Origin: Desulfuromonadales bacterium
GTDB lineage: Bacteria > Desulfobacterota > Desulfuromonadia > Desulfuromonadales > BM103
DNA: 20,046 bases
Reading direction: 5' to 3'
Assembly: GCA_030640215.1 (NCBI GenBank)
Contig: DAOWJU010000048.1
Span: 1 to 20,046, forward strand
Below the pieces are notes generated by a model. The model searched no databases. It saw only the letters and a list, made by a program, of their open reading frames with translations, and was not told the origin of the DNA. Position numbers and translations under genes: made by a program. Positions 4,508 through 20,046 of this stretch are shown here, piece after piece (the stretch's first letter is position 1; each line of letters starts with the position of its first letter).

Positions 4508-5269
4508 TTACTCCTCTCGATGGATCGAAAAAGGCCCCCAAGCCTGATCAACCGGCATCACTTCCAGACTATTAATATTCACATGAGCCGGTCGATTAAC
4601 CACCCACGTGACGGTTTCAGCAATATCAACCGCAGTAAGTGGCTCAGTTCCTGCGTAAACCTGATCAGCCTTACCATCATCACCCTTAAAACGAACATTG
4701 GAAAACTCAGTTTCAGACATACCGGGCTGAATACAGGTCACCCTGACCTGCTTGCCGAGCAAATCGGCCCTCAGGTTGCGGGAAAACTGTGAGACGAAGG
4801 CCTTGGTGCCTCCGTAAGCATTACCGCCGGGGTAAGGCCAAGAGGCGGCTGTAGAGCTGATGTTAACAATATGACCGCGATTACGTTCCACCATGCCGGG
4901 GAGAATGGCACGGGTGCAGTACATCAGCCCCTTGATATTGGTATCGACCATCACGTCCCAGTCTTTAATATCAACTTGATGAGAGGGCTCAAGGCCGAGA
5001 GCAAGGCCAGCATTATTGACCAGCACATCAATCTCACGAAAATCGGCAGGTAAGTTCGTAACCGCAGCTTCAATTGCTGCATAGTCGCGGACATCAAGCT
5101 GCAGAATATGCACTCCGGCAGCGTCAACCAGTTCGTCACGTAACGCTTGCAGCTTTTCTTTGCGACGCGCCGTCAGGATGAGACGGTCACCTGCTGCTGC
5201 AAAAGCACGGGCACAAGCTTCGCCGAAACCGGATGATGCGCCAGTGATAAAAATAGTTTTCACAGACAT
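4508..5269 (-). CDS. ydfG: YdfG-like NADP-dependent short-chain dehydrogenase
   Basis: The 253-residue product is a classical short-chain dehydrogenase very similar to E. coli YdfG, which oxidises L-allo-threonine, L-serine and 3-hydroxypropionate and reduces malonic semialdehyde. Visible are the cofactor loop TGASSGFG (9-16), NNAG (85-88), and the catalytic Ser (about 138), Tyr152 and Lys156 in AYGGTK. YdfG-specific stretches include NNAGLALGLEPSHQ, ILPGMVERNRGHIVNISST, TEFSNVRFKGDDGKA and PAHVNINSLEVMPV. The gene starts 16 bases after the stop of the upstream selenoprotein gene, so the two probably share a transcript. The exact substrate is inferred from similarity only. Confidence 0.9.
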   Translation of the reverse strand: MSVKTIFITGASSGFGEACARAFAAAGDRLILTARRKEKLQALRDELVDAAGVHILQLDVRDYAAIEAAVTNLPADFREIDVLVNNAGLALGLEPSHQVDIKDWDVMVDTNIKGLMYCTRAILPGMVERNRGHIVNISSTAASWPYPGGNAYGGTKAFVSQFSRNLRADLLGKQVRVTCIQPGMSETEFSNVRFKGDDGKADQVYAGTEPLTAVDIAETVTWVVNRPAHVNINSLEVMPVDQAWGPFSIHREE

Positions 5270-5285
5270 CGCATAGATCTCTCTT

Positions 5286-5507
5286 TTATGAATTGGCCAG
5301 TTGCTTCAACAGTTGCTGTTCATCGGGGAATTCACCAGTCGATTTCTTCGAGTAAATCAGTTCACCATCGACCACAACTTCGAAAACGCCCCCTGTTGAT
5401 CCAATCAACTCGACCTCGAAGCCACAATGCTTTTTCAGTAAGGCTGCCAAACTGACAGCACGAGGTTCATAGCTTCACATAGTGCAGTATTCAATGCTTG
5501 CCTTCAT
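5286..5507 (-). CDS. SelW/Rdx-family selenoprotein with in-frame TGA (Sec)
   Basis: Reading 5507 to 5286 gives a 73-codon frame whose only interruption is TGA at 5475-5477, codon 11, in the context EYCTMUSYEPRAVSL. This is exactly the CxxU redox motif of the SelW-like Rdx family. Family features continue after it: an AALLKKHCGFEVELIGSTGG region, then VFEVVVDGELIYSKK and a GEFPDEQQLL tail. Length is typical of bacterial SelW-like proteins. The ATG has a strong AAAGGAG six to seven bases upstream. A SECIS-like hairpin starts 16 bases after the TGA (5443-5459). It is a thioredoxin-like redox protein of unsettled substrate. The alternative, a pseudogene with a nonsense mutation, is unlikely because everything else is intact. 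Confidence 0.88.
5443..5459 (-). promoter_or_regulatory. Candidate bacterial SECIS hairpin
   Basis: On the minus strand GCUGUC and GGCAGC pair (six pairs, one G-U) around the five-base loop AGUUU. The apical loop begins 22 bases after the UGA and has G in its second position. Both features fit the loose bacterial SECIS consensus as I recall it (loop about 16-37 bases after the UGA, G among the first two loop bases). The structure would recruit SelB with Sec-tRNA. Confidence 0.6.
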
Positions 5508-5555
5508 AATTTACTCCTTTGACTATAACTTATTAATATGGCCTTTTACAAAGCC

Positions 5556-5634
5556 CGTCATCCTCGTGAAAACGAGGATCCATTGTTTAATAATTCCTGT
5601 AAACCACTGGATTCCCGCATACGCGAGAATGACG
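5556..5634. repeat. Inverted-repeat intergenic element, copy 1
   Basis: The element starts CGTCATCCTCG and ends CGAGAATGACG, so its ends are imperfect inverted repeats. Inside are GAGGATCCA and TGGATTCCCGC, each half also forming its own hairpin (CCTCGTGAAAACGAGG on the left). A second element with the same GTCAT-TCCCG / GGAATCCAG / CGGGGATGAC layout lies at 7587-7660. The design resembles short dRS3- or MITE-like repeats. Confidence 0.65.
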
Positions 5635-5672
5635 ATAAATGAGCTTTACATAAGCCTCCTTTGAATTAAGGG

Positions 5673-5678
5673 TATAAT
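5673..5678 (+). promoter_or_regulatory. Possible -10 box upstream of the DCC-family gene
   Basis: A perfect TATAAT lies 44 bases before the ATG at 5723. No good -35 hexamer is present at 16-18 bases; TTTACA at 5645 is 22 bases away. The call therefore rests on the -10 match and position only. Confidence 0.35.
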
Positions 5679-5722
5679 AACAGAAGGTAAGCACTTTTGT
5701 TCAGACTTATAGAGGTAGAATC

Positions 5723-6121
5723 ATGACGACCCGATATCCCCTTACCATATTTTTCGACGGTGCCTGTGGCGTTTGCTCTACAGAGATCAGTTACTATCGC
5801 TCAATAGCCGACCAGCGGGTAGAGTTTGTCGATATTGCAGCTGGTGATTTTGACGCCGAGGCATTCGGCAAGAAGATTGGAGAGTTTCAGGAGCAACTGC
5901 ATGCGCGCGCTGCAGACGGTCAGTATTTTACGGGGGTAGAAGCATTCCGCCAACTCTGGGAAGCATTGCCATCCCCCTTTTACCCTCTGCTGTCAACGGT
6001 TGTCGGCTTACCGGGGATTCATTTATCAGCACGCGCTGGATATGCATTTTTTGCCAGGTTCAGACATCTATTCCCGGCGAGACACGCGACCAGTTGCTCG
6101 ATTGCCAAAAAACCAGGATAA
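5723..6121 (+). CDS. DCC-family (DUF393) thiol-disulfide protein
   Basis: The 132-residue protein begins with a beta strand and the motif FFDGACGVCSTEI (residues 9-21), the DGxCxxC signature of the DCC/DUF393 thioredoxin-like family. Members are presumed thiol oxidoreductases; substrates are mostly unknown. A second family feature, an F-x-G-v-x-A-f-x-x-l-w block, is visible as FTGVEAFRQLWEALP. The C-terminal part is hydrophobic and basic (LPGIHLSARAGYAFFARFRHLF), and the tail ends in SCSIAKKPG. The ATG follows AGAGGTAG. It is probably transcribed alone, with a response-regulator gene 85 bases downstream. Confidence 0.85.
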   Translation: MTTRYPLTIFFDGACGVCSTEISYYRSIADQRVEFVDIAAGDFDAEAFGKKIGEFQEQLHARAADGQYFTGVEAFRQLWEALPSPFYPLLSTVVGLPGIHLSARAGYAFFARFRHLFPARHATSCSIAKKPG

Positions 6122-18671: not shown

Positions 18672-20046
18672 TTAATTGTTGATCAGCCCCGCAAGCTTGT
18701 GCGTAGTCACGTTGGTGACGACAATGCCGCTTTCGGCAGGACGGAGGTCAGTTCGTAGCACTTCACTCGTGTCTTTTGCAAGCTCCAGCCCGGTGGTTTT
18801 TTTGACTGGCTCGCTGACCAGAGAAATTTCAACGCGGCGATTTAGTGCTCTACCGGCTTCGTTAGTATTGTCAGCCGTTGGCATGCTGTCGCCAAGACCA
18901 TGCAAGATGATGACTTCAGATGGGACTCCAAGTTGCTGTTGCAAATATTCGGCTACATTGCGAGCACGTGCCTCGGACAGGGCAAGATTGTCGGCAAAAA
19001 CATGTTGGCTTCGTGCGGCGATCGGCAGATTGTCGCTATGCCCGACCACGTCAACTCTGGCCAGCTTCTGTGACTTAAGTTGATCAACGAGTTGGTCAAG
19101 CATCTCCAAGTCACTCTCCTGCAGTGTCGCGACGAATGAGGGGAAGTGCGGGTAGAGATGAATCTCTTGTTTTTCCTGAGGTTCCGAGTCGGCCGCTACA
19201 AACCGATTCACAGCGATCGGAGCCCGCTGATTTTGTGCAGAAAGTTGATCAGTAGCTAACTTCGCGGCAGCAATCTTTTCGGCGTCGGCTTGCTCTGCAG
19301 CCAACTTTGCAGCAGCAACCTTTTCAGCTTCGGCTTGCTCTGCAGCCAACTTCGCGGCAGCAACCTTTTCGACTTTGGCTTGTTCTGCAGCCAACTTCGC
19401 GGCAGCAACCTTTTCAGCTTCGGCTTGATCTGCAGCCAACTTAGCGGCAGCAACCTTTTCAGCTTTGGCTTGTTCTGCAGCCAACTTCGCGGCAGCAACC
19501 TTTTCAGCTTCGGCTTGCTCTGCAGCCAACTTCGCAGCATCAACCTTTTCGGCTTCGGCTTTCTCTGTAACGGATTCATCAACCACAACAGCCTGGGCTT
19601 CCGCAACTAAAGTCGATTCTGGCTCATCCCAAGAGACGACGATACCCTCTGAACGATTTTCGACTTTGTATTCCGGCAGGGTTGATTCACTAGCAACAAA
19701 TACCAGCCGGACCTTATCAGTGTGTGCTCCAAGACGTATTTGGTTAAAGCCATCGATTGCAGAGAATGAGCGTTCATCAAAAGAAGGCTCCACATTGTAA
19801 AGATCGACAACCAATCGCGGTGGATCAATTAGGGTAAAATATCGGATTTTCTCAACCAATCCGTCAGACTCAATCACAACTCGCCCGGGAGCCGCTATAA
19901 CCTGACGCACGACGGATGCTTTCTGCAACTTCTCAGCAGCAAGTTTTTCAGCAGCAAGTTTTTCAGCAGCAAGTTTTTCAGCAGCAAGTTTTTCAGCAGC
20001 AAGTTTTTCAGCAGCAAGTTTTTCAGCAGCAAGTTTTTCAGCAGCA
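18672..20046 (-). CDS. AMIN/OmpA-domain envelope protein with alanine-rich repeats (5' end outside the window)
   Basis: The minus-strand frame is open from the window edge to TAA at 18672-18674, giving 457 visible residues and an unseen N-terminus. In order it contains: perfect LAAEK repeats; an AMIN-like domain (RVVIESDGLVEKIRYFTL, PPRLVVDLYNVEP, IRLGAHTDKVRLVF); seven 15-residue KLAAEQAEAEKVAAA-type repeats, probably helical; and an OmpA-like peptidoglycan-binding domain (VVGHSDNLPI, LSEARARNVAEYL, NRRVEISLV). AMIN domains target periplasmic proteins to the envelope, and OmpA domains bind peptidoglycan. It is probably a cell-envelope anchor or scaffold spanning the periplasm. An internal TTG at 19928 should not be taken as the start. 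Confidence 0.88.
   Translation of the reverse strand, partial: AAEKLAAEKLAAEKLAAEKLAAEKLAAEKLAAEKLAAEKLQKASVVRQVIAAPGRVVIESDGLVEKIRYFTLIDPPRLVVDLYNVEPSFDERSFSAIDGFNQIRLGAHTDKVRLVFVASESTLPEYKVENRSEGIVVSWDEPESTLVAEAQAVVVDESVTEKAEAEKVDAAKLAAEQAEAEKVAAAKLAAEQAKAEKVAAAKLAADQAEAEKVAAAKLAAEQAKVEKVAAAKLAAEQAEAEKVAAAKLAAEQADAEKIAAAKLATDQLSAQNQRAPIAVNRFVAADSEPQEKQEIHLYPHFPSFVATLQESDLEMLDQLVDQLKSQKLARVDVVGHSDNLPIAARSQHVFADNLALSEARARNVAEYLQQQLGVPSEVIILHGLGDSMPTADNTNEAGRALNRRVEISLVSEPVKKTTGLELAKDTSEVLRTDLRPAESGIVVTNVTTHKLAGLINN
19252..19566 (-). repeat. 45-bp in-frame tandem repeats (15 aa x 7)
   Basis: The marker GCAGCCAAC recurs exactly every 45 bases at 19297, 19342, 19387, 19432, 19477 and 19522, with a diverged unit at 19252. 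Each unit encodes KLAAEQAEAEKVAAA or a close variant. The inner units differ by only a few bases, indicating duplication within the gene. The charge pattern suggests an extended helix like the TolA periplasmic domain. Confidence 0.9.
19936..20046 (-). repeat. 15-bp perfect tandem repeats (LAAEK) running off the window
   Basis: The unit GCAGCAAGTTTTTCA (plus strand) is repeated seven times without any change from 19936 to 20040 and continues past the edge. On the coding strand each unit encodes LAAEK. Perfect identity implies recent expansion or frequent copy-number change. The array may also be an assembly breakpoint. Confidence 0.95.

Follow-up and report, generated by a model that had tools for sequence, protein, structure and literature searches.

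The window, by which we mean the whole stretch of 20,046 nucleotides analysed here, carries on its minus strand a frame (5507-5286) of 73 codons followed by TAA, in which the sole internal stop is a TGA at codon 11. An earlier note had proposed a hidden SelW-like frame at 5286..5507, with this one TGA at the CxxU position (EYCTMUSYEPRAVSL), a strong ribosome site before the ATG and a TAA at its end. The coordinates proved exact, translation places the TGA where it had been described, and both the ribosome site, 6 nt upstream of the ATG, and the TAA are present. With the TGA read through, the product is MKASIEYCTMUSYEPRAVSLAALLKKHCGFEVELIGSTGGVFEVVVDGELIYSKKSTGEFPDEQQLLKQLANS*. The features discussed in the text are the following.

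4508..5269, minus strand: SDR oxidoreductase, nearest NCBIfam model YdfG; starts 16 nt past the selW stop
5286..5507, minus strand: predicted selW-like selenoprotein gene, 73 codons and TAA; Rdx match, TGA at codon 11 in relatives
5443..5459, minus strand: candidate bacterial SECIS hairpin GCUGUC-AGUUU-GGCAGC, starting 15 nt after the UGA with its loop 21 nt after; from covariation and a held-out set
5449..5453, minus strand: apical loop AGUUU of the SECIS hairpin, with a conserved G second, including the Ser19 codon AGT; from comparison of relatives
5475..5477, minus strand: predicted selenocysteine codon TGA, codon 11, second residue of CxxU (C8-T-M-U11); from the frame and relatives
5514..5520, minus strand: ribosome binding site AAAGGAG, 6 nt 5' of the ATG; read directly from the sequence
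5723..6121, plus strand: DCC1-like thiol-disulfide oxidoreductase, divergent from selW; from its frame and Pfam

Two further observations concern the surroundings of the gene. A palindromic repeat of about 100 bp (window 5540-5640) lies just 5' of selW; 16 matches to it are listed genome-wide, its own included, which suggests a small repeat element dispersed in the genome. At 18672-19928 the minus strand encodes an AMIN and OmpA-domain protein with a long central run of AEKVAAAKLAAEQ-type repeats.

The family assignment was made with the TGA read through, as the earlier note had advised. The Pfam model Rdx (PF10262) matched residues 4-70 of the product at 73.3 bits (cut-off 22.6, E=1.8e-20), a match well beyond chance, and the NCBIfam model TIGR02174 (CXXU_selWTH) matched at 65.7 bits, over its cut-off of 34.2. 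NF041051 (SelTWH_Campy) also aligned with residues 4-70, at 82.9 bits; this is under its curated cut-off of 88, and for that reason the product was left outside the SelTWH_Campy equivalog. Solved Rdx structures could be matched by sequence, the best being 2fa8 (E=4.6e-10). The Selenoprotein W of 2npb aligned with residues 5-70 (E=0.0053); the two are Rdx homologues, and distant ones. The AlphaFold2 model of the product (TGA given as C, 24-row alignment) has a mean pLDDT of 92.7, and the predicted order of elements is strand 2-8, helix 14-28, strands 31-37, 42-46 and 49-53, a short helix 54-57 and helix 63-71. In this model the motif C8xxU11 falls between strand 2-8 and helix 14-28, as is characteristic of Rdx proteins. 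A redox pair placed between the first strand and the first helix is the arrangement of thioredoxin-like redox proteins. C8 and position 11 are invariant in all 24 aligned sequences, which were hand-chosen for the alignment.

Relatives were sought in one genome per species across 84,980 species, using a set of six peptide patterns that all leave codon 11 out, and the best 80 of 109 were compared. All 80 of these best 80 of 109 have TGA at codon 11, and their frames stay open past it as far as the match extends; the unrelated disruption of the frame in close relatives that the earlier note had named as a ground for refutation was thus looked for in this set, and the same TGA, with the frame read on past it, was found instead. 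Going by record labels, the best 80 of 109 span at least eight phyla (Deltaproteobacteria/Desulfuromonadales, Acidobacteria, Planctomycetota, Gemmatimonadetes, Actinomycetota, Zixiibacteriota, Calditrichaeota, Marinimicrobia and Verrucomicrobiales among the labels); most are metagenome-assembled genomes, and the nearest of the best 80 of 109 that bear a name are Desulfuromonadales/Deltaproteobacteria. A SelW match was present in 61 of the 118 genomes of the window's order, with 66 places listed. Exactly one TGA interrupts 62 of these places, two TGAs one, a TAG one, and no stop the remaining two (one a CxxC form, the other a partial match without the motif region). The codon position could be read at 30 of the 66 places, and all 30 have TGA within CxxU; the window is one of the 30, and some of them are also among the 80 relatives. 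A sample of 148 genomes of the phylum gave 26 Rdx places including that of the window: 22 with one TGA only, one with a TGA and a TAG, and three that are stop-free and carry Cys at the Sec position. Homologues that keep the in-frame TGA as TGA or replace it by Cys, the pattern used as a criterion for bacterial selenoproteins, are what is seen here.

Two loci of the order stand apart. A genome of the same genus has a second SelW-like copy (L134, G050:C44:94629-94832) with two in-frame TGAs (CKQUDYUDR), which is a form with two Sec residues or else a paralogue in decay. Another copy (L132, G074:C1:2796230-2796358) is decayed: its match is interrupted by a TAG, and the CxxU motif is missing.

The candidate SECIS hairpin was found by comparing relatives and not by folding of a single stretch. 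Single-sequence folding downstream of the UGA (51-91 nt) did not return it and gave unremarkable z-scores; its pairing probability in 60 nt of the window is 0.022, longer stretches of the window have a different fold of minimum energy, and folds of 48-58 nt show a competing CAGU/ACUG pairing. The Rfam scan of 4900-5800 gave nothing at the gathering score and two weak matches below it. The published bSECIS model calls for a stem of 4-16 bp, a loop of 3-9 nt with G in position 1 or 2, a distance of 16-37 nt from the UGA and a minimum free energy of at most -7.5 kcal/mol (PMC13188914). The window has a stem of 6-7 bp and a loop AGUUU or GUU at 21-22 nt from the UGA, with G second and within the pattern N1-G-U-N-N2; its energy is -7.8 kcal/mol for 5443-5462 (20 nt) and -8.7 for 38 nt. 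The agreement in energy is marginal, as the value is -7.4 against the limit of -7.5 when the A-U pair is left open (6 fixed pairs). Only 33 of 81 sequences reach -7.5 in the 6-pair form, and five loci (L072, L079, L091, L099 and L100), with energies of -0.6 to +8.1 in the hairpin register, form the hairpin poorly or not at all.

The comparative signal was assessed over 76 distinct rows. The pairs are formed in 89.5% of cells, a share that is 24-52% if the 3' partners are displaced by 1-3 columns. In 27 cells both sides have changed, compared to 4.6 on average after shuffling, and none of 500 shuffles reached the covariation score of 0.323 (versus 0.175), although such scores are inflated by kinship among the rows, as the tool itself warns. 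Three of the pairs show changes on both sides, which is not unusual (shuffled mean 2.1, reached by 95 of 500). RNAalifold, to which the structure was not supplied, predicted just the five inner pairs of the seven. A held-out set of 56 further loci (30 from the order, 26 from the phylum sample) contributed 36 distinct new TGA sequences, and at least five of the six pairs form in every one of them (five in 22, six in 14); L159, a TGA form, stands outside these counts. The Cys forms L136, L157 and L158 form 3, 2 and 3 of the six pairs, and are a small but suitable negative control; they are also more distant proteins.

The plainest evidence for a SECIS constraint is the serine usage at codon 19, which lies in the loop. 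Serines at this codon are written AGT in 66 of 69 cases and AGC in three, with TCN in none, whereas AGT accounts for 18 of the 332 serines at other positions 3' of the TGA in these genes. The contrast (p=1e-54) comes from related sequences and is indicative only. All 22 codon 19 serines of the held-out set are AGT, and the loop over the 80 loci (best 80 of 109) is mostly AGU[U/C]U.

The genome of the window is a draft of 2.71 Mb in 347 contigs, 82.9% complete. Profile searches placed selA over its cut-off on contig C255, and selB and selD over theirs, side by side, on contig C241. Curated cut-offs are quoted for the sel families because weaker matches of these families occur in many control genomes. 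A tRNA-Sec is encoded on C255, with the anticodon tca by ARAGORN; the other tRNA above the RF01852 cut-off in this genome is tRNA-Trp, with anticodon cca. Absence of the Sec machinery had been the other ground on which the earlier note would have given up its proposal; with selA, selB, selD and tRNA-Sec all in the genome, the proposal stands.

The selD gene adjoining selB (L010, about 185-1210 on the minus strand of C241) itself has a single in-frame TGA within the match, near the N-terminus (SGUAAK), and its frame reads KTSGUAAKMAPG. This SelD is predicted from its sequence to be a selenoprotein. SelD is among the selenoproteins described for Geobacter species (PMC1794560).

Two genomes of the order count against the Sec reading. 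G039, of the same genus and 99% complete, and G076, of the same order and 100% complete, each have a TGA-containing selW and a tRNA-Sec; in neither did the searches give a selA match, or a selB or selD above the cut-off. Since selA and selB adjoin in G010, G074 and G114, and selB and selD in the genome of the window, one missing contig could remove selA, selB and selD together. That such a contig is missing from the G039 and G076 assemblies is a guess, and a recent loss of Sec decoding in these genomes is compatible with the same findings. A short selB match at a contig end of G039 was considered as a sign of an assembly gap and was dropped, as similar short matches occur in G010 and G114 at places other than their full selB genes; it is more likely another GTPase gene. 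Across the order, selA is found at E<=0.001 in 104 of 118 genomes, in 59 of the 61 with a SelW match and in 45 of the 57 without (Fisher p=0.004), a co-occurrence that says little because selA is nearly universal and that is confounded by assembly completeness.

Database entries give a different picture of the active site. Of 92 database relatives, 16 were read: seven span the TGA with W in its place, two begin at an ATG just before the TGA and then have W, seven begin after it, and none has U. The warning of the earlier note that gene calling loses the active site fits this sample of 16 out of 92. The W in nine of the 16 entries is what would be seen if a changed genetic code made TGA a codon for Trp or another residue. 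We regard this as very improbable in a genome that has selA, selB, selD and a tRNA-Sec (tca), and whose tRNA-Trp has the anticodon cca; moreover, we know of no family precedent for Trp at the Rdx redox position. The W residues probably come from gene calling with another code.

The seven of 16 entries that begin after the TGA would suit a product that starts downstream, the UGA merely closing a leader. Against such a start, the ten codons before the TGA hold the first strand (2-8) and the conserved Cys8, a good ribosome site stands 5' of the upstream ATG, and past the TGA the window offers no start codon before a TTG at codon 20, inside helix 1; we consider a downstream start highly improbable. 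The same judgement applies to a pseudogene, that is, a Cys-type SelW-like gene in which a chance nonsense mutation turned TGC or TGT into TGA. Either codon is one base from TGA, and a decayed copy bearing TAG is known elsewhere in the order (G074), but the TGA is identical in 80 of 80 relatives (best 80 of 109), across phyla, and the choice of the Ser19 codon and the pairs of the hairpin are constrained in the TGA forms.

Drawn from the computed frame, family, machinery, conserved TGA, conserved hairpin and predicted fold, the explanation that we hold to be almost certain is a standard bacterial SelW-like (Rdx) gene in which the UGA of codon 11 is decoded as selenocysteine. The Sec reading that the earlier note proposed is supported by the sequence comparisons, and Sec insertion at codon 11 would proceed as follows. 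Translation would start at the ATG at 5507, and SelB with Sec-tRNA(Sec) would insert selenocysteine at the UGA under the direction of the hairpin, which lies within the coding sequence at nucleotides 16-32 after the UGA. The product would be a small thioredoxin-like protein with its Cys8-x-x-Sec11 pair between the first strand and the first helix. Motif and modelled fold point to redox activity, in which the Cys8/Sec11 pair may perform reversible selenenylsulfide/thiol chemistry.

The gene belongs to a kind already described between 2005 and 2008, and the surprise is accordingly low and the novelty less than the earlier note implied. Bacterial SelW-like selenoproteins were reported from the marine metagenomes of the Sargasso Sea (PMC1088965) and of GOS (PMC2398784), the latter with 427 SelW-like selenoproteins versus 56 Cys homologues. 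One is described in Geobacter sulfurreducens in a paper that also covers Desulfotalea psychrophila (PMC1794560), and SELENOW-like, Rdx and CxxU are listed together in PMC9312934. The CxxU motif, a Sec-decoding genome and a SECIS within the coding sequence after the UGA are common to the window and to the published bacterial cases as these sources present them (PMC1088965, PMC1794560, PMC2398784); we see no essential difference, and the sequence is new. The SECIS elements of eukaryotic selenoprotein genes sit in the 3' untranslated region (PMC13188914), whereas the candidate element here is in the coding sequence. What bacterial SelW does in the cell was described as unclear in 2005 (PMC1088965).

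The neighbouring genes were compared by clustering frames of at least 90 residues within 3 kb of selW at 80 loci (best 80 of 109) and in the window, and the 18 largest clusters were viewed. The largest draws on 18 sources, the window among them, and lumps together ABC proteins that are unrelated; part of it consists of EttA-like genes. The SDR cluster has nine sources including the window and that of the DCC1-like gene seven. The SDR gene adjoins selW in eight of the 80 relatives (best 80 of 109), the closest eight, and the DCC1-like gene stands beside it in six of the 80 (best 80 of 109). As both are confined to the closest relatives, a functional link to selW is only a lead. The YdfG model scored 364.6 bits against the SDR protein, under its cut-off of 411. 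We infer that selW and the SDR gene are co-transcribed. A further proposal makes selW and the YdfG-like SDR gene of this genus a redox operon of two genes: SelW would protect the NAD(P)H-dependent SDR or restore its activity, or the SDR would reduce SelW. This is speculative and in our judgement unlikely.

An ABC-F gene lies beside the Sec-type selW, on the same strand, at 10 of the 80 loci (best 80 of 109), in Planctomycetota-labelled or unlabelled bacteria; it is upstream of selW in L061, L064, L065, L071, L076 and L090 and downstream in L056-L059, which are near-identical to each other. All four ABC-F genes tested match models of the EttA translational throttle, the other six having been assigned by clustering only. 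This EttA-like neighbour recurs in other lineages and is not found beside selW in the window. Adjacent Prx/SelW reads have been reported in the GOS data (PMC2398784).

Confirmation of selW rescues a gene that routine annotation tends to lose along with its active site. The hairpin that co-varies over the 80 loci amounts to a family-specific SECIS profile, with which such genes could be annotated in different phyla; three Cys forms lack it. If the SelW-SDR operon were true, it would give bacterial SelW a concrete partner.
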